The notes beneath the pieces were generated by a model. The model was not told the origin of the DNA, did no database searches, and saw nothing but the letters and a program-made list of their open reading frames with translations. A program made the translations under genes and the position numbers. Shown here in pieces: positions 4,842 to 34,616 of a DNA stretch of 35,506 bases. This DNA comes from an uncultured Bacilli bacterium (GTDB taxonomy: Bacteria > Bacillota_I > Bacilli_A > RF39 > UBA660), in NCBI GenBank assembly GCA_944331865.1, contig CALVIZ010000010.1:1-35506 (forward strand), in the 5' to 3' direction. Positions within the stretch are counted from its first letter, which is position 1. Every line of letters begins with the position of its first letter.

Positions 4842-6485
4842 ATGAAAAAGAAGTATGTAGTAATATTTAGCGTTCTATTAATAGTATCGGTATTAATTTA
4901 TATTTGTATACCTAAAGAAAAAGAAGAAGTAGAAGATACTGAAACAAATGTAAATAAAAATGGTTTTTTAACTTTAATGTTAGAACAAGATGATGGGTCT
5001 TATCAAAAGTCTTCATCAAATACATGGCCAGGGGATGGTTATGCTTTTAATAATGAACTATCTGGTTGTGAAAGAGGTGGATAATTAGTATATGATAGAG
5101 AGACAAATATAGTCAAATTAATAAGTAGTGGATCAGATAAATGTTATGTCTATTTTGATAAATATAATGTAGCAAAGATAACTAATGTAACAAGCACAAA
5201 AACAACAAATAGTGTAACTTTAACAGTAACAACAGAAGCTGGAGAAAACCCATTAGAAAAATATTATTTCAGCAAAGATGATGGACAATCATATCAAGAA
5301 AGTAGTACTAACACATATACATTTAGTAATTTAAATTATGGAACAACTTATACATTTAAGGTATATGCAAAAGATACATTAGGATATGAAACAAATGAAG
5401 AAAGTATAGAAGTAACAACAAATGCATATGTAAATCCAACAGTAAATAGTATAACAGTAACAAGTAAAACGACAAGTTCAATAAGTATAAGTGTAAGTGC
5501 CAGTGGAGGAACAAATAGTGTAGCAACATATTATTATTCAATAAATAATGGTGCATATACAAGTAGCAGTAGTAATACCAAAACATTTACAGGATTAAGT
5601 AAAGGAACAACATATACAATAAAAGTATATGTAAAAGATACAAATGGAGTATCATCAAGTGAAAAGACAACAAGTGCTCAAACAAAAAGTGAAATACTCA
5701 TAGCAGATGTTTGTAGTAATGGAACAAATTTAGCAACATGTATAAAAAATTATTATAATGAAGCAGGATCAGATATGTCTAGTATGTACTATCATACAAG
5801 TAGTTTAGCAAATAGTGCAGGAGATAACTCATATAGATATGCTGGAGCCAATCCAAATAATTATGTATGCTTTGGAACAGATGCAAGTACATGCCCAGGA
5901 GATAACTTATATAGAATAATTGGAGTATTTGGAAGTGAAGTAAAACTAATTAAATCAACTAGTTATGGTAATTATGCTTGGAGTACATCTGGCAATACTT
6001 GGGCAAGATCTAGTCTAAAAAGAACTTTAAATTCAACATTTTTAAACAGTTTTTCTACAGTTTGGCAAAATAAAATTATATCATATACATGGTATGTTGA
6101 AGGATATGATCAAAAAGAAGTACCTCCTAAAAGTTTTTATGATGCAGAAAGTAGTGGAACAACTTGGAATGGTAAGATTGGGTTAATGTATATAAGTGAT
6201 TATGGATATGCAGCAAGTAATAATTATTGGACAACAACATTATGGGATTATGACTTGGCAACAAACTCAAATTGGCTATATTTAGGAACTGAAGAATGGC
6301 CAATTACAAGAGATAAATTTTTTCAATATGATACTTTTTATATTCGAGATAATGGTGACATTAATTGGCAAGGTGGCTTTAATCAAGGTTATACTTATGC
6401 GGTTCGGCCTTGTTTTTACTTAACATCTTCCACAACTTATGTCTCCGGATCTGGAACAAGTTCTGACCCAATTAGGATAAATTAA
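4842..6485 (+). pseudogene. Cell-surface protein with FN3-like repeats, interrupted by one in-frame stop
   Basis: One reading frame runs from the ATG at 4842 to TAA at 6483-6485, broken only by TAA at 5082-5084. Before the stop are an N-terminal membrane anchor (MKKKYVVIFSVLLIVSVLIY) and a short extracellular stretch ending LSGCERGG. After it come LVYDRETNIVKL...DKCYVYFD, two beta-rich fibronectin-III-like repeats (about 5190-5430 and 5440-5690), and a C-terminal domain rich in W and Y ending AVRPCFYLTSS...GTSSDPIRIN. That domain resembles the C-type-lectin-like or DUF6273-like tails of gut Firmicutes surface proteins (recognition from memory). The uninterrupted frame on both sides implies a recent nonsense change, a sequencing error, or readthrough. 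As written, only an 80-residue anchored peptide is made. Codon use is strongly biased to ACA and AGT, unlike neighbouring genes. Confidence 0.75.
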
Positions 6486-14220: not shown

Positions 14221-14320
14221 TTTAAAATAATACGAAGTTCTCTTGCGAGAACTTCTTAAAGAATAAAAAGGGGTTGACTAGTGTGATACTAGCACCAATT
14301 CGCCTTTAAGTGAATTGGTG
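14160..14320 (-). ncRNA. Candidate small RNA A, leftward, upstream of recG
   Basis: No reading frame fits here, yet the minus strand has a promoter, TTGACA (complement of 14350-14355), 17 bases, TAGGAT (complement of 14327-14332), placing the start near 14320. The transcript then has hairpin 1 CACCAATTC/GAATTGGTG (14293-14320), hairpin 2 CTAGT/ACTAG (14278-14292), a single-stranded TCAACCCC, and a 9-bp hairpin GAAGTTCTC-GCAA-GAGAACTTC (14234-14255) closed by a GNRA loop. The GNRA loop exists only in this strand, which supports the orientation. The end is either at 14225 or at the next terminator near 14165. I do not recognise an Rfam family. Confidence 0.5.
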
Positions 14321-14326
14321 ATTACT

Positions 14327-14355
14327 ATCCTAACCGATTTTGATTACTTTGTCAA
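14327..14355 (-). promoter_or_regulatory. Promoter of small RNA A
   Basis: Reading leftward: TTGACA (14350-14355), 17-base spacer, TAGGAT (14327-14332). The -35 is perfect, the -10 weaker. Confidence 0.5.
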
Positions 14356-14398: not shown

Positions 14399-16393
14399 AT
14401 GAATTTAAATTTAATTAAAAATATAGGTCCTAAAACTGAAAAAATATTAAATAAAATTAATATATTTTCTGTTGAAGATTTAGTAACTTATTATCCATAT
14501 CGTTATAATGTTATTAAATTTATTAATATAAATGATGCTAATGAGAGTGATATATGTTATGTATTAGCTACTGTTTTAAGTGTTGTTAAAATAAGTTTTA
14601 TTAAGAAAAATTTTAATAGATTAGATTTTATTGCTGCAAATAATAATATTAGTTTTAAAGTAACTATTTTTAATAGAGCTTTTTTAAAAAATAATTTGTA
14701 TGTTAATAGAAAAATAGTTTTAATTGGTAAGTATAATAAAATAAAAAATATATTTATTGCTAATGATATAAAATTTAATGTTGAAGATGGAACAATTGAA
14801 CCAATATATCATTTAACGGAAGGATTAAAAAATAGCAATTTAAGAAAATTAATTAATGAAAGTCTTAAATTAAAATATAAGGTATATGATTATGTACCTG
14901 ATATATTTAATGATAAATATAATTTTATTAATAAAGATAAAGCAATAGAGTTAATACATAATCCTAATAGTATTAGTGATATAAAATCAAGCAAATTAAA
15001 GTTAATATATGAAGAATTATTTTTGTATATGTTTAAAATTAATTATTTAAAATTATTAAATAAAAAATCAAATGGTATTAAAAAAATTTTTGATGAAAAT
15101 ATTTTAAATGAATTTTTAAATAGTTTAAGTTTTAAATTAACTCTTGATCAAGAATTAGTAATAAAAGAAATATTAAATGATATGAAAAGTTCTAATCGTA
15201 TGAATAGATTAGTTTTAGGAGATGTAGGCAGTGGTAAAACTATTGTGGCAATTGTTGCTATTTTTACTAATTATTTAAGTTCATATCAAGCAACTTTTAT
15301 GGCTCCGACAGAAATTCTTGCTAAACAACATTATGAAACTATTAAAAATTATTTTGAACCTTATAATATAAAGATTGCTTTATTAACTGGTAGCACAACT
15401 AAAAAAAATAAAGAAAAAATTTATGAAGAATTAGAAAGCGGTCAAATTGATTTATTAATTGGAACACATTCTTTATTAAATGAACATGTAATATTTAAAA
15501 ATTTAGGGTTAGTTATAACTGATGAGCAACATCGATTTGGAGTTAATCAACGAAATTTATTACAAAATAAAGATAATAAAAAAGAATCTGATGTTTTATA
15601 TTTATCTGCAACTCCAATACCTAGAACTTATGCTTTAACTATTTATGGTGATTTGGATTTATCTCAAATAAAAACTAAACCTAATATTAGAAAGGAAGTA
15701 ATTACTAAAGTAGTTCTTGAAAAAAATATAAAAGAAGTATTGTTAAAAATATATGAAGAACTTAAACTTGGCCATCAAATTTTTGTAGTATCACCATTAA
15801 TTGAACAAAATGATGAAATAAATTTAAATAGTGTATATGAGTTGAAAGAAAAATTAAGTAATGCCTTTAATAATGATTTAATAAATATAGAAATATTACA
15901 TGGAAAATTAAATGCAAAAGAAAAAGATAAATTAATGTTAGATTTTAAAAAAGGAGTAATTAAAATACTAATTTCAACTACAGTTATAGAAGTAGGAATA
16001 GATATTCCAAAAGCAAGTATGATAGTAATTTTTAATGCTGAACGATTTGGTTTAGCTACGCTTCATCAATTAAGAGGTAGAGTAGGAAGAAGTGATATTC
16101 AAAGCTATTGTTATTTGGTTACTAATAATGAAGATAATGCTAGATTAAAAGTTATGGAAGAAAGCAATGATGGTTTTTACATCAGTGAAAAAGATTTTGA
16201 ACAAAGAGGTCAAGGTGATTTGTTTGGGGTAAAACAAAGTGGTGATATGACTTTTAAAATTGCTGATTTAAAAAAAGATTATAAAATTTTATTGCAGGCA
16301 AAAACAGATTCAGAAATTTATATTAAAAAGTCTCTATTTAAAGGAAATTGTTTGTATGAAGAAGAAATAGAAAAAATAAATTTTTTAGATTAA
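14399..16393 (+). CDS. recG: ATP-dependent DNA helicase RecG
   Basis: Superfamily 2 helicase of 664 residues that remodels stalled forks and branched DNA. A wedge (OB-fold) domain fills the first 200 residues. The helicase motifs follow: Walker A GDVGSGKT (about residue 274), MAPTEILAKQHYE, DEQHRFG (375-381), LSATPIPRTYAL, TTVIEVGIDIPKA, RFGLATLHQLRGRVGRS, and the C-terminal TRG region ERGQGDLFG. Slightly shorter than the 680-700 residues usual in Bacilli, but all motifs are present. TAGGAGC precedes the ATG. Candidate small RNA genes lie on both sides, and the mobile element starts just downstream, so recG is the last chromosomal protein gene before the island. Confidence 0.96.
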   Translation: MNLNLIKNIGPKTEKILNKINIFSVEDLVTYYPYRYNVIKFININDANESDICYVLATVLSVVKISFIKKNFNRLDFIAANNNISFKVTIFNRAFLKNNLYVNRKIVLIGKYNKIKNIFIANDIKFNVEDGTIEPIYHLTEGLKNSNLRKLINESLKLKYKVYDYVPDIFNDKYNFINKDKAIELIHNPNSISDIKSSKLKLIYEELFLYMFKINYLKLLNKKSNGIKKIFDENILNEFLNSLSFKLTLDQELVIKEILNDMKSSNRMNRLVLGDVGSGKTIVAIVAIFTNYLSSYQATFMAPTEILAKQHYETIKNYFEPYNIKIALLTGSTTKKNKEKIYEELESGQIDLLIGTHSLLNEHVIFKNLGLVITDEQHRFGVNQRNLLQNKDNKKESDVLYLSATPIPRTYALTIYGDLDLSQIKTKPNIRKEVITKVVLEKNIKEVLLKIYEELKLGHQIFVVSPLIEQNDEINLNSVYELKEKLSNAFNNDLINIEILHGKLNAKEKDKLMLDFKKGVIKILISTTVIEVGIDIPKASMIVIFNAERFGLATLHQLRGRVGRSDIQSYCYLVTNNEDNARLKVMEESNDGFYISEKDFEQRGQGDLFGVKQSGDMTFKIADLKKDYKILLQAKTDSEIYIKKSLFKGNCLYEEEIEKINFLD

Positions 16394-16407: not shown

Positions 16408-16436
16408 TTGACAAAATAGAAAAAAAATATTAATAT
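16408..16436 (+). promoter_or_regulatory. Promoter of small RNA B
   Basis: TTGACA at 16408-16413, 17-base spacer, TAATAT at 16431-16436. The start would fall near 16442, at the first base of hairpin 1. Confidence 0.5.
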
Positions 16437-16441: not shown

Positions 16442-16546
16442 TAGCATGATACTTCGTCATGCTAACAACCTGATCTCTCTTACGAATCTCAATGTGAAGA
16501 GATCAACCAAAACCCCCTGAAGGCTACCGAAAGGTAGCCATTTTTG
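16442..16546 (+). ncRNA. Candidate small RNA B; its 3' end is the attachment site of the mobile element
   Basis: About 105 bases without a reading frame. Hairpin 1 is TAGCATGA/TCATGCTA (16442-16449/16457-16464). Hairpin 2 is TGATCTCT/AGAGATCA (16471-16478/16498-16505), extended by TTAC/GTGA around one bulge. A C-rich single-stranded segment ACCAAAACCCCCTGAA follows. A terminator GGCTACC-GAAA-GGTAGCC (16522-16539) with a GNRA loop and a T-run ends it. The C-rich stretch could pair with Shine-Dalgarno sequences, as known for RsaE/RoxS and FsrA, but that role is inferred. The layout parallels small RNA A. It is not a tRNA, tmRNA, SRP RNA or 6S RNA that I recognise. Confidence 0.55.
16513..16522 (+). 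repeat. Left attachment-site repeat (attL core)
   Basis: CCCCCTGAAG, identical to 34867-34876. Both copies end on the first base of a terminator hairpin, but the hairpin arms differ (GGCTACC here, GAGAGCA there). Crossover therefore probably falls just 5' of the small RNA terminator, and the incoming element supplies a replacement terminator. Confidence 0.5.
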
Positions 16547-16579
16547 TTTATATTAAAGGGTTTTAGACCTATTTAGTAA

Positions 16580-16603
16580 TTTTAGGTACACTTTTAGGTA
16601 CAC
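16580..16603 (+). repeat. Tandem 12-base repeats, putative integrase arm-binding sites (left)
   Basis: TTTTAGGTACAC occurs twice without a gap (16580-16591 and 16592-16603), 58 bases inside the left attachment repeat. Short direct repeats at this place are typical arm-type sites for the N-terminal domain of tyrosine integrases. A similar pair lies at 34952-34974. Confidence 0.5.
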
Positions 16604-16639
16604 AAATTTAAAAAAGAACTAAAAAACTATGTTTTGAGT

Positions 16640-16723
16640 GGTAATAATATATTTATATATTATTACCATAATAAAACCAAAAACAGAGAAATTTAGAGTA
16701 TTAAAAAACATATCTAAATTTCT
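16640..16723. repeat. Two perfect inverted repeats at the left end of the element
   Basis: GGTAATAATATA/TATATTATTACC (16640-16651/16656-16667) and AGAAATTTAGA/TCTAAATTTCT (16687-16697/16713-16723). They may shield the AbiE promoter from readthrough or be recognised during recombination. No T-run makes either a clear terminator. Confidence 0.5.
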
Positions 16724-16732
16724 TTAATTATA

Positions 16733-16767
16733 TTGACAAAATTACTGATAAACATTATAATATCAGT
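16733..16767 (+). promoter_or_regulatory. Promoter and operator of the abiE operon
   Basis: Perfect TTGACA (16733-16738), 17 bases, TATAAT (16756-16761). The inverted repeat ACTGATA (16744-16750)/TATCAGT (16761-16767) brackets the -10. AbiEi antitoxins are known to repress their own operon by binding inverted repeats, so this is the likely operator. Confidence 0.7.
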
Positions 16768-16791
16768 AGATTTGTCAAAAGGAGGAAAATT

Positions 16792-17418
16792 ATGGAAAGG
16801 ATGACAATAAAAGAATTTAAAGAAGAAAGTAACTTTGAAGTTATTGAATCAATTATGAAAATGAACAACGGATATGTTACTTCAAAAGAACTAGATAATT
16901 TTGGAATACATAGAATGTATCTAAATTCTATGTGGAAAAAAGGAATTGTTGAAAAAGTTGCACCTGGTATTTATATAGATATTAATAAAATTGAAGATAA
17001 TTATTATGTTTTTAGTCTAAGTATGCCAAATACAATTTACTCTCACATGACTGCACTTTATTTTCATGGACTTTCTATTAAAGCACCAAATGATAAATAC
17101 GATATTACAGTAAAAAAGACTTATAATAGTAAACATTTAACAAAACATGAAGTGTTTTATGTGTCAGACGATATTTATGAACTAGGACTTACTGAAGTAA
17201 AAACACCAATGGGAAATAGTGTAAGAGTCTATGATGTAGAAAGATGTATATGTGATATCATTAGATCTAAAAATAGAATGGATTCAGAACACGTTAAATA
17301 TTCAATTAGAGCATATCTTAAAAGAAAAGATAAAAATCTAGTTAAACTATCTAATTATGCTAAAGAAATGGGGATTAAAGAAGAAGTAATGAATTATATA
17401 GAGGTATTTTATGAATAG
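16792..17418 (+). CDS. abiEi: AbiEi-family antitoxin of a type IV toxin-antitoxin system
   Basis: Protein of 208 residues with an N-terminal winged helix (about residues 15-70, NNGYVTSKELDNFGIHRMYLN, ending in PGIYID) and the C-terminal AbiEi domain (VYDVERCICDIIRSKNRMD). In studied pairs AbiEi does not bind the toxin; it counteracts it indirectly and represses the operon through the winged helix. AAAGGAGGA directly precedes the ATG. The gene overlaps abiEii by 8 bases, typical for the pair. The promoter upstream is a perfect consensus containing a palindrome. It is the first cargo gene inside the left end of the element, where it could also stabilise the element. Confidence 0.88.
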   Translation: MERMTIKEFKEESNFEVIESIMKMNNGYVTSKELDNFGIHRMYLNSMWKKGIVEKVAPGIYIDINKIEDNYYVFSLSMPNTIYSHMTALYFHGLSIKAPNDKYDITVKKTYNSKHLTKHEVFYVSDDIYELGLTEVKTPMGNSVRVYDVERCICDIIRSKNRMDSEHVKYSIRAYLKRKDKNLVKLSNYAKEMGIKEEVMNYIEVFYE

Positions 17419-18247
17419 TATGAAATTAAAAGATAAATTAAAAAACATTTCAAAAGAAAAAAATGTAGATTTTAATACATTACTTAGACTTTATATGTAT
17501 GATAGGTTTATAGAAAGACTATCAGTTAGTAAATATAAAGATAATTTTATCTTAAAAGGTGGATTTTATTTAAGTACATTATTTGGAGTAGAAAATAGAA
17601 CTACTATGGATATTGATACTGCTTTTAGGAATGCAAATTTTAATGAAGAAACAATAGTTAAAATGATTAAAGAAATAGTATCAATAGAGATAGACGATAA
17701 TGCAAAACTTAGTTATTTAGGAATATCACCAATAAGAGATGAAGATGAGTATGGCGGTTTTAGAGCTGATATTCAAATTGAAATAGATAATATTAAAGAA
17801 AAATTTCATATTGATATAGCTACAGGTGATCCAATTACTCCAAAAGAAATTAATTATAAATATAAACCAATTCTAGGTGATAGATATGTAAAATTATGGG
17901 CATACAATATTGAAACAGTACTAGCAGAAAAGATAGAAACAATTTTAAGTAGAGTAGAATTAAACGGGAGAATGAGAGATTTCTATGATATCTATTTAAT
18001 TTATACAAAAGATTGGGATAACGTTAATTTAGAAGATTTTGTTAAAGCAATAGAAAAAACATTTTATAAAAGAGAATATGTTGGTGAGCCGTTACTTGCC
18101 TTAGATTTAATTATGGATAGTGATATATTGAAAGAAAGATGGATAAGTTATCAAAAAAGATACGAGTATGCAAGTAATATAGATTTTGATGAAATATTAA
18201 TTTGTTTAGAAAAGATTATTAATGTAATAGTTCTTGAAACAGTTTAG
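17411..18247 (+). CDS. abiEii: AbiEii-family nucleotidyltransferase toxin
   Basis: Protein of 278 residues with the nucleotidyltransferase signature: FILKGGFYLSTLFG (GG at 50-51) followed by RTTMDIDTAF (aspartates 67 and 69), then the downstream AEKIETIL lysine region and the RMRDFYDIYLI motif of the AbiEii/DUF1814 family. Family members transfer nucleotides to RNA (tRNA in MenT/AbiEii studies) and block growth, giving abortive phage defence. GAGGTA at 17401-17406 serves the start at 17411; a second ATG at 17420 is possible. It is translated coupled to abiEi. All catalytic residues visible appear intact. Confidence 0.88.
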   Translation: MNSMKLKDKLKNISKEKNVDFNTLLRLYMYDRFIERLSVSKYKDNFILKGGFYLSTLFGVENRTTMDIDTAFRNANFNEETIVKMIKEIVSIEIDDNAKLSYLGISPIRDEDEYGGFRADIQIEIDNIKEKFHIDIATGDPITPKEINYKYKPILGDRYVKLWAYNIETVLAEKIETILSRVELNGRMRDFYDIYLIYTKDWDNVNLEDFVKAIEKTFYKREYVGEPLLALDLIMDSDILKERWISYQKRYEYASNIDFDEILICLEKIINVIVLETV

Positions 18248-18260
18248 TAGGTGATTGATA

Positions 18261-18689
18261 TTGATAAGAACAATAGAACAAATAAGAACTAATAAAATTA
18301 AATGTAAAAAATGTGAAGATATAATTGAATCTATTGATGTTCACGATTTTAAATGGTGTTCTTGTGGGGCAGTCGCCATAGACGGTGGACGTGAATATTT
18401 AAGAAGAATAGGAAATAAAGAAGACTTTGAAGAATTATCTCATTTTATAAAATTAGCAGAAATAACTACTGACGGTTTTGAAATAGTAAAAGATGCATTA
18501 AGTAAAAAGGATATATCGTTTAGAAATACTCATTGTCATGTTTGTGGCTCTGATTATGTAAGTTTCCAAAAAGGTGATGGAGAATTAATAAATGGCGATG
18601 ATACAATAGCTCTTGTATGTCATGATTGTAAAAAGGTGTACTGTTTTAGTGATATTAACTATAAAGATGAAAAACATAGAGAAATTTAA
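18261..18689 (+). CDS. Zinc-ribbon protein of unknown function (DUF7695-like)
   Basis: About 142 residues with two cysteine-rich modules. The N-terminal one is KCKKCEDIIESIDVHDFKWC followed by SCGAVAIDGG. A C-terminal CHVCGSDY...CHDCKKVYC resembles a second zinc ribbon. The HDFKWCSCGAVAIDGG stretch is a recognised small-protein family often found near defence or mobile genes (from memory). Start choice: there is no ATG; TTG at 18261 lies 6 bases after AGGTGA (18249-18254), while the in-frame TTG at 18255 is too close to that site. It follows abiEii by 13 bases and precedes the ATPase by 29, so it is probably cotranscribed with both. Confidence 0.6.
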   Translation: MIRTIEQIRTNKIKCKKCEDIIESIDVHDFKWCSCGAVAIDGGREYLRRIGNKEDFEELSHFIKLAEITTDGFEIVKDALSKKDISFRNTHCHVCGSDYVSFQKGDGELINGDDTIALVCHDCKKVYCFSDINYKDEKHREI

Positions 18690-18718
18690 GTGAATTGTAG
18701 GAAAGAATGTGATTAAAA

Positions 18719-20677
18719 ATGAATATTAAAATTAATAACTATAAAAATTTACAAAATTTGAATTTGGATATATGTGAAAATAAAATAAATTATATTTTTG
18801 GCATAAGTGGAAGTGGAAAATCAAGTATTGGAGATGCATTGAAAAAAGAAAACATTGAACAAAACGTATCAATTGGGTTTACATTAGATGAAGTAGAAAT
18901 ATTGGTAAATAACAGTAAAATAGAAGAGCCGTTAGTTGTTTTTAACACTAGTTCCGTAGAAAAACTTCTTATAAATAATACAAATAATAACATGGTGTAT
19001 AATATCGTTTTCGATAATAATAACAAAATGATTGAGCTTCGTCAGGAATTTGATAAACAACTAAGTGAATTAATAAAATATAAAGAAGACATTTATGATT
19101 ATATTTCTAAAATAGAGAAAATGAACAAAATTTTTGGTGGTAAAGTAACTCAAACAAATGATTTGCCTAAAAGTGCTAAAATAATAAAAATTAAAAATGC
19201 TGTTTCAGAAACAGAAAATAAGGATACTATTAAAATTATTAAAGAAAAAGGAAATTGGTTTATACCATGGGTAAAGAAAGGATATGATTCTGAAGAATAT
19301 AAAAAAGGAATATGCCCGTTTTGTGGACAATCATTAAATGATAATCTCAAAGAAGAAATAAATAAAATACTAGATTTTAACGAGAAAGACTTTGATATTA
19401 TGTTTCAGGACGGAACAATATTAACGGATTTAAATATAAAAATTCCTGATTATTCAAACACTGACGAAATAAATGCAGTAAAAGATGAAATAATAAAAAA
19501 AGTATTGTTAAAAGAGGAATTACTTGGATTAATAAATATAATGAATTATTATAATAATCCTTCCTTTAATCCTTCTATGCTAATTCCAATAAAATTATCT
19601 AATTTGTTAATTGAAACCTTTCCAAATTTAAAAGAAATAGTAATTAATATCAACAATTCTTTAGGAGAAATTAAAACAACTTTAGGAAATTTAAAACGAG
19701 AAACTGATAAAGTTATTACTCATAACATAAGAAAAATTAATTCTTATCTAGATAAATTTGGAATTAATTATAATTTTGATATAGATGGTTATTCAAATGA
19801 AAATAATACTTTAAGTTATTCACTTTTTCATAAGTTAGATGAAAATAAAGAAAATAGAATACATGGTTTATCCTTTGGCGAAAAAAATTTAATTAGTTTA
19901 TTATTGTTTTTATTGAGTTCTAAAGAAGAAGTTATAATTATAGATGATCCTGCTTCGTCTTTCGACGATTATAGAAGAAAAGAGATATTATCATTAATAT
20001 ATGATATATGTCCAAATAAAACATTGTTAGTATTATCTCATGATCATATATTTATTAAATACGCACTATTTAATTATAATAATTCAAAAAAACAAATAGA
20101 AGAAGGTAAAGATGTATCTGAATTAATAACAAAATATTATCATAATACTGGAAAAATAATTGCTTTAGAAAATTATACAAGTGGTAATATAAATTTGAAA
20201 GATATTCGTTATGAGGATTTTGATATATTATCCAATCATATTTTACAATTTTTAAATAATAATATGGTATATTTTAGAAAAGTAATTAATTTAAGATTGT
20301 TTTATGAATGTAATAAATCAGAAAGTTCAAAAGATATCTATGAATACTTATCCTCTATATACCATAAAACACCTCAAAATGAAATAATAGCCAAATTAAC
20401 TGAAAAAGGTTTAGCAGAAGAAAGCATAATAGATAAAATTTATCAGGATACAAATATAAAGTTGCCAGTTGTTCCAGCAGATGAATATTTTAAGATAGAT
20501 ATTAATTCATTAACTTTATTTGAAAAAATATTATATTGTAGAGAAGAACAAGAAACAGAAGCAAGGGAATCATTTAATAATGTAGTACACATGAATGAAT
20601 CATTGCACATCTGTTTAAACCCATACTATTTCAATTATTTTTCTCCATATGTTTATAATTTATTAAAAGATAAATAA
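18719..20677 (+). CDS. RloC/PrrC-like AAA ATPase, candidate anticodon nuclease or OLD-type defence protein
   Basis: Protein of 652 residues with an ABC/SMC-type ATPase split by a helical insertion. Walker A is GISGSGKS (28-35), a CPFC zinc-hook-like motif lies at 199-202, the signature is LSFGEKN (about 384), Walker B is IIDDPASSFDD (about 407-417), and the switch histidine is in LSHDH (about 441). RloC combines this ATPase and zinc hook with a C-terminal anticodon nuclease; here the C-terminal 200 residues contain RLFYE (R526-x3-E530) and later histidines such as VVHMNES. That is reminiscent of the R-x3-E...H nuclease triad but not proven. It is shorter than typical RloC. It closes the left cargo block and converges on the integrase gene. 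Confidence 0.7.
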   Translation: MNIKINNYKNLQNLNLDICENKINYIFGISGSGKSSIGDALKKENIEQNVSIGFTLDEVEILVNNSKIEEPLVVFNTSSVEKLLINNTNNNMVYNIVFDNNNKMIELRQEFDKQLSELIKYKEDIYDYISKIEKMNKIFGGKVTQTNDLPKSAKIIKIKNAVSETENKDTIKIIKEKGNWFIPWVKKGYDSEEYKKGICPFCGQSLNDNLKEEINKILDFNEKDFDIMFQDGTILTDLNIKIPDYSNTDEINAVKDEIIKKVLLKEELLGLINIMNYYNNPSFNPSMLIPIKLSNLLIETFPNLKEIVININNSLGEIKTTLGNLKRETDKVITHNIRKINSYLDKFGINYNFDIDGYSNENNTLSYSLFHKLDENKENRIHGLSFGEKNLISLLLFLLSSKEEVIIIDDPASSFDDYRRKEILSLIYDICPNKTLLVLSHDHIFIKYALFNYNNSKKQIEEGKDVSELITKYYHNTGKIIALENYTSGNINLKDIRYEDFDILSNHILQFLNNNMVYFRKVINLRLFYECNKSESSKDIYEYLSSIYHKTPQNEIIAKLTEKGLAEESIIDKIYQDTNIKLPVVPADEYFKIDINSLTLFEKILYCREEQETEARESFNNVVHMNESLHICLNPYYFNYFSPYVYNLLKDK

Positions 20678-20679
20678 AA

Positions 20680-20716
20680 AAAGAGACCTAGTCCGTTAAA
20701 GGACTAGGTCATCTTT
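20680..20716. terminator. Bidirectional terminator between the ATPase and integrase genes
   Basis: GACCTAGTCC (20685-20694) pairs with GGACTAGGTC (20701-20710), loop GTTAAA, flanked by AAAGA and TCTTT that extend the stem. The integrase stop codon lies in the loop. Confidence 0.9.
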
Positions 20717-21982
20717 ATTTTTAGGTTTAACTATTTCATATTCTTCATAATCATATGATTCTTCTTCTGATTCAGGTAATGTTTCTTTATGTTCTAATAA
20801 GATGGTTGGTTTAGTTTCAATAATATTATTATTTAATCTACTGTTTTGTAATTCAATAATATTAACAATAGTATCAAGTCTATTTTGATACATATGAGAA
20901 TAAGTATTTAATGTTTCATCTATTTTAGTGTGTCCAAGATATTTAGCGACTAAAGTTATATTAGCACTGCTATCTATTAATAAAGAGGCACAACTATGTC
21001 TAAAGTCATGAATTCTAATATCCTTAACTCTAGCCATAAAAGCATTCTTTGTTTTTCTATCTAATAGAGTAGTAGCAGATAATGGATCAATATTACCAAA
21101 AACATACCAAGACTCCCTAAAACCATAATAGTTAGCATCGTCATTATATAAATCAGATAAATCTTTTAATAAGAAATTTGGAATAGGGATAGTTCTATAA
21201 CTTGAACTTGTTTTAGGACTAGTGACAGTATATGGTTTGCCTGTTTTAGTATCAGGCACTTTAACAATATTTTTGTTAACAGTCAAAGTACTTCTATTAA
21301 AGTCTATATCATTCCAAGTTAAACCTCTTAATTCACCATTTCTAAGTCCGCAATAAAATAGAGTTTGAAATGCACATCTAAATTTTAAATTAGTTTCTAC
21401 TGATAAGAATCTTTGAAACTCATCTAATGTATAAAATAGCATTTCTTTTTTTCTTTCATTTGGATTAGTAAAGTTAGTCATTTTATTATAAACTTTAACA
21501 AAGTTAATATCATACCATTTAGTACCAAAATTCATTAGTGCTTTTAAGTATTTATAAACTCCATTTTTATATCTAGTAGAAATAGGTTTGTTATTCATAA
21601 ATTGTCTCCATATTTCAAAGTGTCTAATATTAAAAGACTCTAATTTAATATTTTCTAATGGTTCTAAATAAACCATCATATTTCTATAATTGGATAGAGT
21701 AGTTACTTTGACTTTATCTTGTTGGTATTGATAATGTTCTTGTATTAAATCTTTAAAAGTTAAATCTGTAAACTCAGTTTGATTTTTAATTTTAACTTTA
21801 AACTCAGCTTCATGATCTTTTGCTTCTCTACGAGTAGCAAATTTTTTAGAATGGTATCTGCATCTTTTTCCTAATAAATATCTATATGTTAAATCAACAT
21901 ACCAGCTTCTACCATCTTTTGTACATTCATTATTTTTAGCTTGTCTTATTGATATAAATATCACATCCTTTCTATAATTCAA
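20696..21982 (-). CDS. Tyrosine recombinase (integrase) of the element
   Basis: Protein of up to 428 residues of the phage-type integrase family. An N-terminal arm-binding AP2-like domain (WYVDLTYRYLLGKRCRYHSKKF) and SAM-like core-binding domain lead into the catalytic domain: CGLRNGELRGL (arginine), HDFRHS (about 325-330), YLGH, and TYSHMY with the nucleophilic tyrosine near residue 359. A long acidic tail (ESEEESYDYEEYE) follows. It should catalyse integration and excision at the CCCCCTGAAG repeats. The frame can open at TTG 21982, but GAAAGGA lies inside it (complement of about 21966-21972), so the true start may be slightly downstream. It overlaps the relaxase 3' end by 11 bases and is last in the leftward mobility operon. 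Confidence 0.9.
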   Translation of the reverse strand: MNYRKDVIFISIRQAKNNECTKDGRSWYVDLTYRYLLGKRCRYHSKKFATRREAKDHEAEFKVKIKNQTEFTDLTFKDLIQEHYQYQQDKVKVTTLSNYRNMMVYLEPLENIKLESFNIRHFEIWRQFMNNKPISTRYKNGVYKYLKALMNFGTKWYDINFVKVYNKMTNFTNPNERKKEMLFYTLDEFQRFLSVETNLKFRCAFQTLFYCGLRNGELRGLTWNDIDFNRSTLTVNKNIVKVPDTKTGKPYTVTSPKTSSSYRTIPIPNFLLKDLSDLYNDDANYYGFRESWYVFGNIDPLSATTLLDRKTKNAFMARVKDIRIHDFRHSCASLLIDSSANITLVAKYLGHTKIDETLNTYSHMYQNRLDTIVNIIELQNSRLNNNIIETKPTILLEHKETLPESEEESYDYEEYEIVKPKNKDDLVL

Positions 21983-23295
21983 ATAACTTATGAAATTTAT
22001 CAGCAGCTTCTTCTGCTTCTTTATTTAATTTATTAGCAGCTTTAATTGAATCAGCTAAACTAATATAATCGCTTACATATTTCATAGGTTTTCTATTTAA
22101 CTTAATATCTAAAGCGTCAGATACCTTTTTAAAAGCATTTTTCCAATAATCAATTTCATCGTCTTTGTTTTTTAATTCTATATTTTGTTTATAAATATAT
22201 TTTTTAGTATCAATTAGTTCTTTATTATTCTTATAAATATTATTTTCTATTGATAATCTGTTAATAGTATTTTCATTAGAATCTAATTTGTTTTTATTTA
22301 TGTTATTTAATCTTTCTAAATCGTTAGAGTAGTCAATTAATTTTTCAACATCTTTAGAACTGTATCCAATAATATTTTTCTTAATATTTAAATTATTATT
22401 TTTAACATTATTTTCTAAAACTTCTTTAGATTTGTTTATTTCAATATTATACTTTTCAATATCTTTATATAAATTATTCATTTCAGATTTTAATTCATTT
22501 ATCTTATATTCTAATTTAGTTTGATGAACTTTATTAGAACCAATATTACCTCTATCTAACTTATAACCACAATCAGTTATATATTTATTAAATATATTTT
22601 GGAGATTAGCAAAAGAGTTTCTACCACCTAAATCTTTCCAAAACTGATCATTATTTAAAAAGTTACCTTTAACAGATTCATAAATAATTTTATTATCTTT
22701 ATCTCTAAGTAGTATAGTTTTACCATTTTCTTTAATTAAGTTTCCTTCTGAATCCCGTTTGTAACATTTCCTTTTAATTTCATTAACAATAGGTAAGAAG
22801 TAAGCTTGTAGATGAGGAGTATCTTCGTCATAATGAACTTGTGCCATTACTATATTTTCTTTACCAACTAAATTTTCTAAAAACTTCATACAACAATCAA
22901 AATACTTAGTTACTTCATATGGTATGTCATCTTTAGTTTTAATATCAGGTACTAATATATTGACCTTTCTTATCACCTGATTGATAAGTTCTATCAGTTT
23001 CTTTAAATGGTAAACCCAGAGTCATAAAAAACTCTGAGCCACTTGTAAATGTTACACCATTTAATATATTTGTTTTAGTTTTATGAGAATATTCTATATT
23101 TCTATCTTCTAAAATGGATTTAACTTCTTGATATAAATTACTCTTATTAATATCTTTATAATGTACATTAAATTTAGTTCTTTCCGAATCATAATTACCT
23201 GTACCAATTCTTTTATTCATTTCATTACCTATAAGATATAAATCTTTAGTTTTATAATTATTAACAAATCTTAATACTTGTTTTCCATCATACAT
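21972..23295 (-). pseudogene. MobV-like relaxase, split by a frameshift
   Basis: Two overlapping leftward frames make one relaxase. The 5' part (22945-23295, 116 residues) has the MobV N-terminal pattern including ERTKFNVHYKDINK. The 3' part (21972-22976) has the metal-binding motif VHYDEDTPHLQAYFLPI and a long coiled-coil tail (residues about 155-300). The first frame ends ...GDKKGQYIST; the second picks up in the +1 frame around 22945-22976 as ...KVNILVPDIK. The 3' frame has only a GTG at 22976 without a ribosome-binding site, so an indel is more likely than two genes. Relaxases nick oriT and pilot the strand. The His of the MobV HNxR motif appears replaced (NEMNKR, Met in its place), which would further question activity. 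Confidence 0.75.
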
Positions 23296-23312
23296 ATATC
23301 AACTTCCTTAAA

Positions 23313-23337
23313 TAAAAAAACAACCTTAATGGTTGTT
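23313..23337 (-). terminator. Hairpin between the HEPN gene and the relaxase
   Basis: On the minus strand AACAACC/GGTTGTT (23319-23337) with a 5-base loop is followed by TTTTTTTATT. It would end or attenuate transcription after the HEPN gene and reduce relaxase expression. Confidence 0.75.
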
Positions 23338-23797
23338 AGAATTTTGAATATTTAGATATTCTTGCAATATCGTGAATTAAGGTTTCGAAGGATTCTTTAG
23401 TCCATCCCCTTGGGTGAGTATAACCATGATTAACACTGTTTCTGTTATTGCCACTATCAAGAGGAGATGATTTTTTAAAGTATTTTTTATATTCTTCTAA
23501 TAATTTTAAGTATTCAACATCGTTGTTTTCTTTTATTGCTAAATTAATTAGTTTCATTCCGATTGGTTTATTTGTATTTTCTGAGATCCTTATACCATAA
23601 TCAGAAGTTGTTGTTCTAATTAATTCCTCTAAATATGTATATGCAAATGGTGTTAAAACAGAATAAGAATCAGGGAACACATTATAAATGCCTTTAACGA
23701 TGTTCCAATCAGGAAGCCAGTTCCAAAAATGTGAATAGTTTAATATTTCTTGAAAATCTTCATTTATTGCTTTGTTTTCTACTACGATTGAATGCAT
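23336..23797 (-). CDS. Small protein with an RNxxxH (HEPN ribonuclease) motif
   Basis: Protein of 153 residues, with no family that I can name. Predicted mostly helical, and near its C-terminus it carries RNSVNH (R119-x4-H124, complement of 23426-23443), matching the R-N-x-x-x-H catalytic signature of HEPN RNases. A conserved-looking HPRGWTKESFETLIHDIARISKY follows. HEPN proteins act as RNA-cutting toxins or defence effectors. It sits inside the leftward mobility operon, between repA and the relaxase, with a strong AAGGAGG before its ATG. No antitoxin gene is adjacent; the only nucleotidyltransferase in the element (AbiEii) is 6 kb away. A six-residue motif can occur by chance, so this is a hypothesis. 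Confidence 0.5.
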   Translation of the reverse strand: MHSIVVENKAINEDFQEILNYSHFWNWLPDWNIVKGIYNVFPDSYSVLTPFAYTYLEELIRTTTSDYGIRISENTNKPIGMKLINLAIKENNDVEYLKLLEEYKKYFKKSSPLDSGNNRNSVNHGYTHPRGWTKESFETLIHDIARISKYSKF

Positions 23798-23824
23798 TAT
23801 TGTTTCCTCCTTGTTTTTGCTTTC

Positions 23825-23857
23825 AATATAATTATATGCCTATAAAAATATAATTAT
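23825..23857. repeat. Two 11-base direct repeats upstream of the HEPN gene
   Basis: AATATAATTAT at 23825-23835 and 23847-23857, period 22 bases (two helical turns), between the HEPN start and the hairpin at 23884. They overlap candidate leftward -10 elements, so a regulator could bind here on one DNA face. The sequence is low in complexity, which lowers confidence. Confidence 0.35.
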
Positions 23858-23883
23858 TACATTTTTTGACATATTTTTCAAAA

Positions 23884-23947
23884 AAGTCATATTTTATGAC
23901 TTATCTCACTAGGGCATAGCCCAAAATGTGAGTTAGGATAAATCCTA
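23884..23947. other. Cluster of inverted repeats; candidate oriT and repA terminator
   Basis: Three adjacent structures. AAGTCATA/TATGACTT (23884-23902) is a terminator for leftward transcription. CTCAC (23905-23909) pairs with GTGAG (23928-23932) around an inner GGGC-ATA-GCCC (23912-23922). TAGGAT-AA-ATCCTA spans 23934-23947. A nested hairpin of this kind just upstream of the mobility genes fits a transfer origin for the MobV-like relaxase; no nick site was identified with certainty. Confidence 0.35.
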
Positions 23948-23952
23948 AAACC

Positions 23953-24720
23953 TTATTCTTCTAAATTCAGTGGTTCTATAAACTTAGCTTTATAATTTCT
24001 AGATGTAGCAGTTCTATTTAACTCAACATATATACCTTCTTGTTCTAATCTTTTAATATTACTATTTAATAATCTACCAAAGCGAGAAGGGGTAATTAAT
24101 AAATTTAATTCAGCTACTATTTCAGCTGGAGTAAATATAACTTCTTTTTTCTTAATTACATATCTCATAAATGCAGATAAATTAAAATCTAATTCTGTAT
24201 TATCTTCATTCATTATTTCAAATATTAATTTATCATTTTTTATCAAGTTAAGATTTTGTTCTTCAAAATCTCTGTTTATTATTTTTAATGTGTAGGTATT
24301 ATCTTTGTTATTAATTAAAGTTAATATACCGTTCATATTTCCATCTATACCAGTACTGCCTAAAGTTTTACCTTCTTTATTTAAATGGTGTACTAATAGA
24401 AATGTTAGATTATATTTCTTAGATAGTTCTCTATATTTATCAAACATCTTTTTCATAACATCACTATAGTTATTTATATCTAATTCATAACCATAATCAA
24501 TACCACACATAATATCAACTATTACAAATTTACCGTTATAGGTTTCTGAGAATTCTTTTAGTTCTAATTGTAAGTCATCAGTTAAACATAATCTATGATT
24601 AGAATCTTTCTCAAGGAAGAAGAACGAGTTAGGAGAAAACTCATAACTCGTTATATTAGATAATTTCTGGTATGAATTAATGTCAAAATAACAAATTTTG
24701 TCGAATAATATGTTATAATT
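23953..24720 (-). pseudogene. RepA-like replicative helicase, 5' truncated
   Basis: The frame is open from 24720 down to 23953. The ATG at 24510 is an internal methionine directly after the Walker B strand VIVDI. The 68 in-frame codons upstream encode ...YFDINSYQKLSNITSYEF...FVIVDI but contain no ATG, GTG or TTG, and a stop lies at 24721-24723. Present are Walker B, the LLVHHLNKEG sensor region, GSTGIDGNMNGILTL, and a C-terminal winged helix. Missing are the N-terminal region and Walker A of the RepA/AAA_25 family used by plasmids and integrative elements. The break coincides with the start of the PIN/restriction block, so that block probably inserted here or replaced the 5' half. Not functional as an ATPase if so. 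Confidence 0.65.
24711..24719 (+). promoter_or_regulatory. Extended -10 promoter of the PIN/type I restriction operon
   Basis: TGTTATAAT (TATAAT at 24714-24719) lies about 40 bases before the PIN start, at the edge of the truncated repA. ACAAA-T-TTTGT (24691-24701), a palindrome at about the -35 position, could bind a regulator. No good -35 is seen. Confidence 0.45.
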
Positions 24721-24757
24721 TTATATGAGAGATAACAATGCTTTGAGGGTGATGAGG

Positions 24758-25825
24758 ATGAATAAACTGTTCATAGATACAAACATTTTTGAATCCAAAG
24801 GATTTAATTTTGATCAAAGAAATATTTTGATAAAATTATTGATTGAAAATGCGAAAAACAAAAATTACGAATATTATAATCTATCAGTTATTGATAAAGA
24901 AATTATTTCACATATAACTGATCGTTGCAGTTCAAGAAAAAAGGAACTTTTTAGAAAATTTAAATGGATAAAAAATTATGTTAAAGAAAAAGATATAGAT
25001 GCGAATTGCTATAAAGAATTAATTGATTATGAAAACTTTAAAAAAAATATATTTGCTGTAGATTGTAGCCTTGAAAAAGTAAATCCTGAGAATGTCTTTA
25101 AAAAGTATTTCGAAGTAGAATTGCCTTTTGAATTAAAAGAAGAAAAGAAAAGTGAATTTCCTGACGCTTTTATATCTGAATATTTAAATGATTTATCCAG
25201 GAAAGATGATGACAAAATTTATTTTATAAGCAATGATGAAGGATTAGTAAAGTCATTAGACAGGTCCATTATAACATTTAAAAATATAACTAGCTTTTTT
25301 AGTGAAATTAATGGTGATGATTCGAAAAAAATTAAACAATTTGCTCGTGAAGTTATCACTGCAAAATTAAATGAAATAAGTTCTTATGTTTTAGGATTAG
25401 GAGAATTTAATACTGTTGGTTTAGAAGATGAAGAAATAAATCCAGAAAGCATTCAATTGAGTGATGATTTTTATTTAGAAATATTAGAATCAAATAATAA
25501 TGAATTATATGTGAATTGTACATTTAGTAAGGCAGAACTAATAGGAAGTTTTAGCTGCTTAGATTATGAAAATTCTTATTGGCCAAATAATGAAGATTAT
25601 TATACTTATACAGAATATTTTAAAACCAATAAAATTGAATATGAAGATTATGAAGTCAATTTGAAAATATATAATGAAAATGATAATTATAAAATTGAAT
25701 ATGACAATTTGTATAGTTTTAGTATAAATTACGAAAATATGAAAGAATATGCTACAGAGCATTTTAGTCCATTTGAAGATTATGATGGTGAAGATGATTG
25801 GGCTCAAGATGGCTATATGAGATAA
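24758..25825 (+). CDS. PIN-domain (DUF4935-like) nuclease linked to the type I restriction operon
   Basis: Protein of 355 residues. The first 165 form a PIN nuclease fold with a full set of acidic residues: LFIDTNIF (D7), SVIDKEI (E48), FPDAFISEYL (D136) and FISNDEGL (D160). The C-terminal 190 residues are acidic and aromatic-rich with no family I recognise. PIN proteins cut RNA, as toxins or as defence effectors. The ATG at 24758 is chosen because GAGGG sits 8 bases upstream; the frame also opens at 24725 and 24752. hsdM begins 12 bases after its stop on the same strand, so PIN and HsdMSR are cotranscribed. It may be a second-line effector, but this is inferred from position only. Confidence 0.7.
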   Translation: MNKLFIDTNIFESKGFNFDQRNILIKLLIENAKNKNYEYYNLSVIDKEIISHITDRCSSRKKELFRKFKWIKNYVKEKDIDANCYKELIDYENFKKNIFAVDCSLEKVNPENVFKKYFEVELPFELKEEKKSEFPDAFISEYLNDLSRKDDDKIYFISNDEGLVKSLDRSIITFKNITSFFSEINGDDSKKIKQFAREVITAKLNEISSYVLGLGEFNTVGLEDEEINPESIQLSDDFYLEILESNNNELYVNCTFSKAELIGSFSCLDYENSYWPNNEDYYTYTEYFKTNKIEYEDYEVNLKIYNENDNYKIEYDNLYSFSINYENMKEYATEHFSPFEDYDGEDDWAQDGYMR

Positions 25826-25837
25826 GGAGTAAATAAT

Positions 25838-27406
25838 ATGAATAATAAAAAAGAAAAAGAAAGAGAAGAATTACATAAAACAATTTGGAAAATTGCTAAT
25901 GAATTAAGAGGATCAGTTGATGGTTGGGATTTTAAACAATATGTTTTAGGTTTGCTATTTTATAGATTTATATCTGAAAATATAGAAAACTATGTTAACG
26001 ATAATCAAAGAAAAGCAGGAATTAAAGATTTTAAATATAGAGATATTACTGATGAAAAAGCTTTATTAGGTAAAACACAAATACTTGAAGAAAAAGGATT
26101 CTTTATATTACCGAGTGAATTATTCTGCAATATTAAAAAAGGTGCAGATAAAAATGAAAATTTAAATGTAGTAATATCTAATGTGTTTAATAATATAGAA
26201 GCATCAGCTAGAGGAACCGCTTCTGAAAATGATGTAAAAGGGTTATTTGATGATTTTACTATTGACAATAAATTGGGTAATACAGTAGACGAAAGAAATG
26301 AAAAACTTGTTAAATTATTAAATGCTATTGGAGATTTAAACTTTGGAGATTATGAAGAAAATAATATAGATTTATTTGGAGATGCATATGAATTTTTGAT
26401 GACAATGTATGCATCATCAGCGGGAAAATCAGGAGGAGAATTCTTTACTCCTCAAGAAGTTGGAGAATTACTTGCAAGAATTGTAATTATGGATAAAACT
26501 TCTGTTAATAAAGTATATGATCCTGCGTGTGGTTCTGGAGGATTACTATTAAAATTTGCGAAAATTTTAGGAAAAGAGAATATTAGAGAAGGTTTTTTTG
26601 GACAAGAGATTAACTTAACAACATACAATCTAGCAAGAATTAATATGTTTTTGCACAATATTAATTACAATAATTTTAGTATCGAAAGAGGAGATACATT
26701 AATTCATCCTTCTCATTGGAATGATGAACCATTTGATGCGATTGTATCTAATCCCCCATATTCTCTAAAATGGGTAAGTAGTGACAACCCAATTTTAATA
26801 AATGATGAAAGATTTGCTCCAGCTGGAGTTTTGGCACCAAAGAAGGCAGCAGATTTGGCATTTACTATGCATATGTTATCATGGCTATCACCCAAAGGAA
26901 CAGCTGCGATTGTCGAATTTCCAGGAATATTGTATAGACCTGGTGCTGAACAAAAAATTAGACAATATATGATTGATAATAATTTTGTAGATGCCGTTAT
27001 TCAATTACCACCTGATTTGTTTTTTGGTACTGGTATAGCAACTTGCATTTTAGTTTTAAGGAAAAATAAATCTGATAATAATATATTGTTTATTGATGCA
27101 TCTGAAGATTTTGTTAGAATTGGAAATAAAAATAAATTAACAGAGGATAATATTAATGATATTGTTAAATTATATAAAGATAGAGTTAATGTTGACAAAA
27201 AATCTTATGTTGCAACTTATGAAGAAATAAAGGATAACAACTACAATATAGCCGTTAATTCATATCTAAAGGTTGAAACAATCATTGAAGAAATTGATAT
27301 AGATGTTGTAAACAATCATATTGATGAAATAGTTGAAGAAGCAAATGCTATTCGTTCTGAATTAAAAATACTTATCGAGGAAATGGAGCTAGAAAAAGAT
27401 GAATAG
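25838..27406 (+). CDS. hsdM: Type I restriction-modification DNA methyltransferase subunit HsdM
   Basis: Protein of 522 residues. An N-terminal HsdM helical domain (LHKTIWKIANELRGSVDGWDFKQYVLG) leads into the N6-adenine methyltransferase domain with SGGEFFTPQEV, the SAM-binding DPACGSGGL (228-236) and the catalytic NPPY (305-308). With HsdS it methylates adenine in the bipartite target; with HsdR it forms the restricting complex. AAGGAG precedes the ATG. It overlaps hsdS by 8 bases. Length and motif order match the large HsdM class and no lesion is visible. Confidence 0.95.
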   Translation: MNNKKEKEREELHKTIWKIANELRGSVDGWDFKQYVLGLLFYRFISENIENYVNDNQRKAGIKDFKYRDITDEKALLGKTQILEEKGFFILPSELFCNIKKGADKNENLNVVISNVFNNIEASARGTASENDVKGLFDDFTIDNKLGNTVDERNEKLVKLLNAIGDLNFGDYEENNIDLFGDAYEFLMTMYASSAGKSGGEFFTPQEVGELLARIVIMDKTSVNKVYDPACGSGGLLLKFAKILGKENIREGFFGQEINLTTYNLARINMFLHNINYNNFSIERGDTLIHPSHWNDEPFDAIVSNPPYSLKWVSSDNPILINDERFAPAGVLAPKKAADLAFTMHMLSWLSPKGTAAIVEFPGILYRPGAEQKIRQYMIDNNFVDAVIQLPPDLFFGTGIATCILVLRKNKSDNNILFIDASEDFVRIGNKNKLTEDNINDIVKLYKDRVNVDKKSYVATYEEIKDNNYNIAVNSYLKVETIIEEIDIDVVNNHIDEIVEEANAIRSELKILIEEMELEKDE

Positions 27407-28565
27407 TTTTGCAAGTCTTAAGAAAAAAATAAAAAAGGAAAAGATTAATTATTATAAAATAGGTGAATTGGCAAACTATAGAAGGGGTTCTTTTCCTCAA
27501 CCTTATACAAATCCATCATTTTATGGTGGTGAAGGGAGTATGCCTTTTGTACAAGTTGCTGATGTAACAGAAAATTATAGATTGGTAGAAAAAACTAAAA
27601 ATACAATATCTACTATTGCTCAACCACTTAGTGTTTTTGTTCCTAAGGGTACTGTAATAGTAACATTACAAGGAACTATAGGAAGAGTCGCAATTACACA
27701 GTATGATTCTTATGTTGATAGGACTATTGCTATTTTTGAAAATCTTTCTGATAAACTAGATAGAAAATATTTTGCTTATCAATTAAAAAACAAATTTAAT
27801 TACGAAAAACAATTTGCAAGAGGAAGTACCATTAAAACAATTACTAAAGAAGAAATGACTGATTTTTTAATACCTGTTCCTTCTTTGGAAATACAAAAAG
27901 AAATTGTGGATATATTAGATAAATTTGAAAAAATAATAGAAAAACTAAATGAAGAATATATAGAAAGAACAAAACAATTCAATTACTATTTAGACAAATT
28001 ATTAAATAATGTTGATGGCGAAGCAATGTTATTAGGAGACTTATTGGATTATGTACAACCAACAAAATATATTGTAAAAAGCACTGATTATTCTGATAAC
28101 TATAGTATTCCTGTATTAACGGCAGGGCAAACTTTTATTTTAGGTTATACAAACGAAACTGATGGAATATATCATGCATCAAATGATAATCCCGTTATAA
28201 TTTTTGATGATTTTACTACTTCTAATCATTGGATTGATTTTAATTTCAAGGTAAAATCTTCTGCAATGAAAATGCTTATTCCAAAAACTAATAATAATTT
28301 TAAATATATTTATTATTGTTTAAAAAATATAAAATACGAACCTAAAGAACATTCACGACAATGGATTCAAAAATATAGTAATTTTGAAGTTGTTATTCCA
28401 AGTATTTCTAAACAAAATGAAATTGTAAATTTTTTAGATAAAATTGATAAATTAATAAATAAATCTTCAGGGAAAATTATGTTAGAAATAAAAGAAAGAA
28501 ACAAGCAATATAATTATTATCTAAAAGAATTATTAAGTTTTGAGGAGGTAATAGTTGATGAGTAG
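27399..28565 (+). CDS. hsdS: Type I restriction-modification specificity subunit HsdS
   Basis: Protein of 388 residues with two target-recognition domains (about 10-165 and 205-355). Each is followed by a conserved helical spacer: PVPSLEIQKEIVDILDKFEKI...RTKQFNYYLDKLL and IPSISKQNEIVNFLDKIDKL...RNKQYNYYLKELL. The first domain has the usual GTVIVTLQGTIGRVAI pattern. Each domain reads one half of a split DNA sequence; the sequence recognised cannot be predicted by eye. It overlaps hsdM and hsdR, so the three are coupled. No second hsdS copy or inverted repeats suggesting phase-variable shuffling are visible in the window. Confidence 0.93.
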   Translation: MNSFASLKKKIKKEKINYYKIGELANYRRGSFPQPYTNPSFYGGEGSMPFVQVADVTENYRLVEKTKNTISTIAQPLSVFVPKGTVIVTLQGTIGRVAITQYDSYVDRTIAIFENLSDKLDRKYFAYQLKNKFNYEKQFARGSTIKTITKEEMTDFLIPVPSLEIQKEIVDILDKFEKIIEKLNEEYIERTKQFNYYLDKLLNNVDGEAMLLGDLLDYVQPTKYIVKSTDYSDNYSIPVLTAGQTFILGYTNETDGIYHASNDNPVIIFDDFTTSNHWIDFNFKVKSSAMKMLIPKTNNNFKYIYYCLKNIKYEPKEHSRQWIQKYSNFEVVIPSISKQNEIVNFLDKIDKLINKSSGKIMLEIKERNKQYNYYLKELLSFEEVIVDE

Positions 28566-31620: not shown

Positions 31621-31636
31621 AAGTTGAGGTGAAATA

Positions 31637-33727: not shown

Positions 33728-33728
33728 C

Positions 33729-34349: not shown

Positions 34350-34362
34350 TTCTGGATTTTAT
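34335..34362. terminator. Terminator ending the restriction operon
   Basis: AATCCAGAA (34335-34343) pairs with TTCTGGATT (34350-34358), loop AAATAG, followed by TTATT. It lies over the stop codons of both convergent genes. Confidence 0.85.
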
Positions 34363-34616
34363 TGTGCATGATCATCTTTATCTAAGAAAACAAGTGATTT
34401 TAAAAACTCTATATCTAAATCAAAATATTTAATAACTTCTTTTGTAGGAATACAGTATGCTGGCATATATTTATTTGGTTCTTTTTTTCTGAATTCTTTT
34501 TCAATTTCTTGTTTGATTTTACTAGCAGTAGTAGCTGATACATTAGCTATCTTCATAATATTTTGATTAGAACACCACGGCTTAGATATTATTTCTAATA
34601 TTTCTTTAGCAATCAC
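34359..34616 (-). CDS. Small HTH DNA-binding protein (excisionase or replication regulator candidate)
   Basis: About 85 residues. A helix-turn-helix-like segment NIMKIANVSATTASKIKQEI is followed by a basic linker and a second short domain (CIPTKEVIKYFDLDIEFLKSL). The start is taken as GTG at 34616: AAAGGAGG (complement of about 34625-34632) lies before it, and the ATG at 34634 is too far upstream and would encode the ribosome-binding site itself. Proteins of this kind are common beside RepA and integrase genes in Firmicutes elements. It is the outermost gene of the leftward mobility module, separated from repA by the inserted restriction block. Confidence 0.6.
   Translation of the reverse strand: MIAKEILEIISKPWCSNQNIMKIANVSATTASKIKQEIEKEFRKKEPNKYMPAYCIPTKEVIKYFDLDIEFLKSLVFLDKDDHAQ

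Follow-up and report, generated by a model that had tools for sequence, protein, structure and literature searches.

What joins two identical 10-base sequences that lie in the same orientation on one contig, each followed by a different transcription terminator, when the first of them lies at a small RNA's 3' end? The stretch of DNA analysed here (35,506 nucleotides, referred to as the window) is the entire contig C10 of a 1.19-Mb MAG. It contains two exact copies of CCCCCTGAAG, both on the + strand, at 16513–16522 and 34867–34876, with a spacing of 18,354 b; none of 100 shuffled sequences contained two copies. The left copy forms the 3' end of the unpaired segment AACCAAAACCCCCTGAAG (16505–16522, +) of a small RNA, sRNA B, and its last G is also the first base of a terminator stem, GGCTACC/GGTAGCC (16522–16539). 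The last G of the right copy likewise opens a stem, GAGAGCA/TGCTCTC (34876–34897). The first-pass annotation had placed the end of the repeat on the first stem base, within the last unpaired segment of the RNA, and had described unlike hairpins starting from the same position at the two copies; both descriptions hold.

sRNA B (16442–16546, +) is a standalone RNA gene of about 100 nt located just 3' of recG; it is served by a promoter of its own and contains two hairpins and an unpaired AACCAAAACCCCCUGA. In the window, recG (14399–16393) is followed by a sigma-70-type promoter (TTGACA-N17-TAATAT, 16408–16436, +), hairpin 1 (16444–16462, +), hairpin 2 (16472–16504, +), the unpaired AACCAAAACCCCCTGAAG, the terminator hairpin and a T run. 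A promoter-like pair is present at the corresponding place in 78 of 81 sRNA B loci of relatives, compared with 536 of 5000 random positions. The sequence as far as CCCCCTGA occurs in most species of the genus, and an IUPAC pattern for the RNA matched 43 contigs (MAGs of uncultured Bacilli, Mycoplasmatota and Tenericutes). The gene is conserved over many genera of uncultured Bacilli, within the genus and family of the window, and lies directly 3' of recG in nearly all relatives for which both genes were read. Hairpin 2 is retained among 59 distinct sRNA B bodies, with most of its pairs changing identity, and folding energies are well under those of shuffled sequences (mean z −2.9). Hairpin 2 was folded sequence by sequence instead of from a MAFFT alignment, on which RNAalifold paired it poorly (4 pairs). 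Rfam returned nothing for sRNA B at the gathering score and chance matches only at a relaxed E-value, and a viral collection gave no match to it and distant integrases only. On these comparative grounds sRNA B is a real RNA, and it is presumably transcribed.

The succession of aptamer-like hairpins, an unpaired segment and a terminator would also suit a riboswitch or attenuator for the downstream gene, in which case the repeat would be a shared regulatory motif and not an attachment core. The gene 3' of sRNA B, however, is unrelated between most genomes and differs in almost every one, and thus sRNA B is not the leader of one gene; a conserved regulated downstream gene was not found among the relatives. 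The terminator stems hold no sequence common to the upstream part of the RNA, and therefore offer no conserved antiterminator. Given also that an empty and an occupied site, described below, place an insertion exactly at the core, an attenuator has next to no chance of being the right reading, and we consider the repeat to be an attachment core.

The empty and occupied sites were found in another genus of the same family as the window, in two congeneric genomes, G133 (L235) and G105 (L138); all comparison data are MAG contigs. In G133, sRNA B is followed by CCCCCTGAAGGAGCC, one native terminator and the chromosome, the RNA running into CCCCCTGAAGGAGCCTTATGGCTCC and then into chromosomal sequence. 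This is the empty site that had been predicted for relatives, namely sRNA B, the core and one terminator. In G105, sRNA B continues into CCCCCTGAAGGAGCCGAAAGGCTCC and a 15.85-kb element that encodes a tyrosine integrase, past which lie CCCCCTGAAGGAGCCTTATGGCTCC and the same chromosome, i.e., the native terminator has been displaced to the right end of the element. The sequence right of the core in G133 is 99.93% identical over 1500 b to that right of attR in G105, the left flanks are 96.1% identical, and the two genomes cease to match exactly at the core. A 15-b block, CCCCCTGAAGGAGCC, is shared by attB, attL and attR, and strand exchange must therefore lie inside it. Since the right flank is more similar than the left, it may have been moved or exchanged more recently, which leaves the junction unaffected. 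For the elements in G003, G060 and G096, an empty site was sought through the flanking genes, and none was clean.

According to the first-pass annotation, the element swaps the terminator of the small RNA. The displaced native terminator of G105 agrees with this, as does the presence of a terminator (hairpin and T run) immediately 3' of 63 of 64 distinct sRNA B loci, compared with 128 of 3000 random positions. The hairpins differ between loci. In 11 pairs of loci, right flanks at least 85% identical are attached to sRNA bodies less than 75% identical; for L086 and L113, the right flank (the terminator and the following 100 b) is 96% identical and the sRNA 65%. Such near-identical terminators and flanks on clearly different sRNA bodies indicate that the terminators travel. 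Both terminators of the window have copies elsewhere. The element-supplied terminator of sRNA B (GGCTACC GAAA GGTAGCC and T run, 16522–16546, +) also stands 3' of sRNA B in G131 (L238) and, in G026:C51 (L028), 3' of a junction that has no sRNA. The element's left end in the window is similar to that of L065, which sits on a different sRNA B. The right-hand terminator (GAGAGCA..TGCTCTC and T run, 34876–34904, +) is found with its flank directly on sRNA B in G026 (L011/L030). Two empty-looking sites, L035 (G018) and L044 (G027), have a common downstream gene and unlike terminators. The G018 terminator is nearly identical to that of an element with ACTACCA arms and is perhaps the scar of a lost island.

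The window encodes a tyrosine integrase of 428 aa (20696–21982, −) with Arm-DNA-bind_4 and Phage_integrase (PF00589) domains, assigned by Pfam, PHROGs and its residues. The catalytic R, K, HxxR, H and Y are all present in this protein and in its full-length homologues. Homologous integrases, 32–84% identical to each other, occur in same-site elements at nine loci in several genera (G003, G009, G026, G060, G081, G093, G098 and G105). By repeat search, the left end of the element was found to carry a pair of arm-type repeats, TTTTAGGTACAC TTTTAGGTACAC (16580–16603, +), and the second element, which begins at the right-hand core, to carry TTTTAGGTACAA/TTTAGGTACAA (34952–34974, +). Paired 8-mer direct repeats are present at 33 of 81 sRNA B loci, compared with 57 of 5000 controls, and lie at fixed offsets of +67–74 or +87–94 b from the core. 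The G105 and G060 elements carry matching arm pairs inside both ends (CTACCCAT and TTAGGTAGCA, respectively), the pair recurring 125–140 b before attR, and the G003 element has the repeat GGGAACAA near both ends. The arm sequences vary between elements and the core is constant. Such an arrangement corresponds to the layout of P and P' arms in lambda-type attP sites.

Left ends L137, L140 and L144 have no integrase within the stretch fetched, and the common block may measure no more than 8–10 b, as might be expected if homologous recombination or tandem duplication acted at a hot spot and the integrase were a bystander acting elsewhere. A block of 8–15 b is nevertheless too short for RecA recombination, and complete elements have matched arms inside both ends, at positions fixed relative to the core, with the integrase often no more than 200 b from attL. 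We regard a recombination hot spot as very unlikely, and favor integration by the integrase itself, which would cut within the core.

Across 58 genomes of the family, the core occurs 80 times. In a classification made automatically and completed by hand, 34 of these occurrences are on sRNA B, about 24 are at non-sRNA junctions, nearly all of them then followed by a terminator, and 5 are matches by chance; the remaining 17, which were separated out, are the opposite-strand reading of terminator loops in a second RNA (sRNA A). Several contigs of the family carry two core junctions in one orientation. ARAGORN and Rfam detected no tRNA, tmRNA or Rfam family at the attachment site, and a plasmid collection gave no match to it. 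Contigs L006/L092, L083, L099, L101 and L242 stop a few bases from the core, 3' of sRNA B. Such ends are to be expected where an assembly could be extended in more than one way, whether through mixed occupied and empty sites or through several copies.

As a whole, the evidence is best explained, in our view with high confidence, by the 3' end of sRNA B being the attB of a large family of tyrosine-integrase elements that replace its terminator. The strands would be exchanged inside CCCCCTGA(AG), part of the final unpaired stretch ahead of the terminator. In the attP of an element, the same core would run into a terminator belonging to the element, the two being flanked on either side by arm-type integrase sites, and integration would yield, in order, the sRNA B body, the core, the element terminator, the element, the core and the old terminator. 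For the excised circle of the G105 element, the predicted joint runs from the right end, ..TACTAAATTG, through CCCCCTGAAGGAGCC into GAAAGGCTCC, the element terminator. The regenerated core would be open to further elements, and their entry would give rise to tandem arrays. Because the island supplies a new transcription terminator, the RNA would stay whole: promoter, body and unpaired core would all be retained, and a functional terminator would still follow. Insertion is on this account probably near-neutral, much like insertion at the 3' ends of tRNA genes.

A mobile element had also been proposed to occupy the interval between the two repeat copies. The left boundary stands: an island with an integrase starts at 16513, and repeat search together with the comparison of empty and occupied sites assigns 16513–16522 (+) as the attL core. 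The right boundary does not stand as drawn. Past 34867, 130 b of sequence match left ends of G026 and G077 at 92–94% identity; a second island's left end thus starts there, and the window holds a tandem array. The repeat, the arms and this left-end similarity define 34867–34876 (+) as a second attachment core, where the first island meets the left end of the second element. Two same-orientation cores with an integrase and a relaxase between them would fit one complete element extending from 16513 to 34867, but the arms at the left end (GGTACAC) have no counterpart preceding 34867, unlike those of the complete elements in G105, G060 and G003, and the 18.35 kb may therefore combine sequence from two or more elements. 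Given the second left end as well, a single complete element is possible though somewhat doubtful. Position 34867 is best described, from these alignments, as a junction inside an array, with the outer boundary of one element unproven.

The 18.35-kb island carries, in addition to the integrase, an AbiEi/AbiEii abortive-infection type IV toxin–antitoxin pair (16792–18247, +), an AAA ATPase similar to the PADLOC candidate defence protein PDC-S06 (18719–20677, +), a MobV/Pre-type relaxase (21972–23295, −), the M, S and R genes of a type I restriction-modification (RM) system (25838–31620, +) and a GmrSD-type restriction endonuclease (31637–33727, +). The cargo of the G105 element comprises a CHAT protein, Mob_Pre, AAA_25, a type III RM system, GmrSD_N and ThsB-TIR. 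The relaxase frame of the window is split into two overlapping ORFs (22945–23295 and 21972–22976), for which mutation, assembly error and frameshift are candidate causes. The conserved relaxase motif HxDExxPH is in the second of these ORFs; the relaxase region of G105 also consists of two overlapping ORFs, split at a different point. Elsewhere in the window, the frame of a repeat-rich surface-type protein (4842–6485) contains an in-frame stop at 5082–5084, after which it appears open up to 6485.

Among the ORFs scanned, there were no conjugation or T4SS genes, and Mob_Pre/MobV was present, frame-split in the window. A PHROGs search with seven island proteins gave matches to the integrase and to proteins of unknown function only, and none of the larger ORFs matched a capsid, terminase or tail family in Pfam. 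A prophage was rejected as the identity of the island, as neither search found structural or packaging genes. Integrative mobilisable elements with a MobV/Pre relaxase are a known class. The window island and the G105 element are like them in that a MobV-type relaxase and an AAA_25 ATPase lie close to the integrase, and differ from them in attachment site and in a heavy defence load (AbiE, type I and III RM, GmrSD and Thoeris ThsB). Judged by gene content, both look like mobilisable defence islands, and the element family appears to consist mostly of integrative, mobilisable defence islands.

A second small RNA, sRNA A (14234–14355, −), lies upstream of recG and is divergent from it. It comprises a promoter (14327–14355), two hairpins (14293–14320 and 14278–14292), an unpaired CAACCCCTTTTTATTCTTT (14258–14276) and a terminator (14234–14255), all on the − strand. 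An exact 19-mer of sRNA A is present in 47 of 58 family genomes, GCTAGTATCACACTAGCCAACCCCTTTTTATTCTTT is nearly invariant, and no Rfam family corresponds to it. Often its terminator loop contains UCAGGGGG, a complement of the core of sRNA B. Of 62 distinct sRNA A copies, 33 have TCAGGGGG, the exact complement of CCCCCTGA, in this loop, where it is enclosed by 32 different stem sequences; it appeared in 7 of 31,000 shuffles. In the genus of the window, the sRNA A loop is without the core complement, and the sRNA B bases after CCCCCTGA are free to vary. At one further locus (L166; G033:C1, ~75223), a copy of the 3' half of sRNA A (GCTAGTATCACACTAGCCAACCCC...) is present in another context, where both the usual first hairpin and the terminator are missing.

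The persistence of the core complement in a loop whose stems vary suggests that sRNA A and sRNA B may pair in many genera. Such pairing may explain why the core has varied so little that elements can use it for docking, and the core is probably conserved as the working segment of the RNA. A bolder extension, which we consider unlikely, is that the core is the seed of a chromosomal RNA–RNA circuit: the sRNA A loop UCAGGGGG would pair with CCCCCUGA of sRNA B, elements would dock at the 8-mer, and terminator replacement would alter the stability or pairing of sRNA B, making integration a retuning of the circuit and not neutral.

Islands in tRNA and tmRNA genes are integrated by tyrosine integrases at the 3' end of the gene, which is restored while the original fragment is displaced (Islander, PMC4383910). 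The elements described here share these traits. A tyrosine integrase with complete catalytic residues lies inside the element, a direct repeat is present at both ends (15 b in G105, with a single copy in the empty site of G133; 10 b in the window), and the RNA gene is restored with displacement of its original 3' fragment, the element terminator being at attL and the native one at attR. Several islands per site are likewise described for the tRNA and tmRNA islands (Islander, PMC4383910). By target, membership in that class was rejected, with no tRNA or tmRNA at the site: the target here is an sRNA absent from Rfam. The replaced part is a terminator hairpin, whose sequence need not match that of the host, and this allows the shared core to be as short as 8–10 b.

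The first-pass annotation had called a site that is neither tRNA nor tmRNA unusual, which is a fair description, with the qualification that a precedent exists. PAGI-97B and related islands occupy the PrrF1/PrrF2 sRNA locus of Pseudomonas aeruginosa (PMC8373256), and this was the only precedent found in the literature on attachment sites. There, islands with an XerC/D-type tyrosine recombinase lie directly 3' of the sRNA gene and PrrF1 is intact (PMC8373256). That site differs in consisting of tandem, near-identical sRNAs, of which PrrF2 is lost in strain 97, and the portion of the report cited here describes no element-supplied replacement terminator, unlike the sRNA B islands (PMC8373256). 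What is new at sRNA B is the terminator-only repair, the breadth of elements on one sRNA and the possible RNA–RNA role of the core.

These findings mean that tRNA-style docking and rebuilding at an RNA 3' end works on a small regulatory-type RNA too, where any sequence is allowed because the rebuilt part is only a terminator. They also provide a search rule for similar sites: conserved sRNAs whose terminators diverge from the sRNA phylogeny. For the poorly studied gut Bacilli examined here, the sRNA B site is a hot spot for defence islands, and sRNA A and sRNA B come to light as conserved, uncharacterised RNAs that may base-pair with one another.
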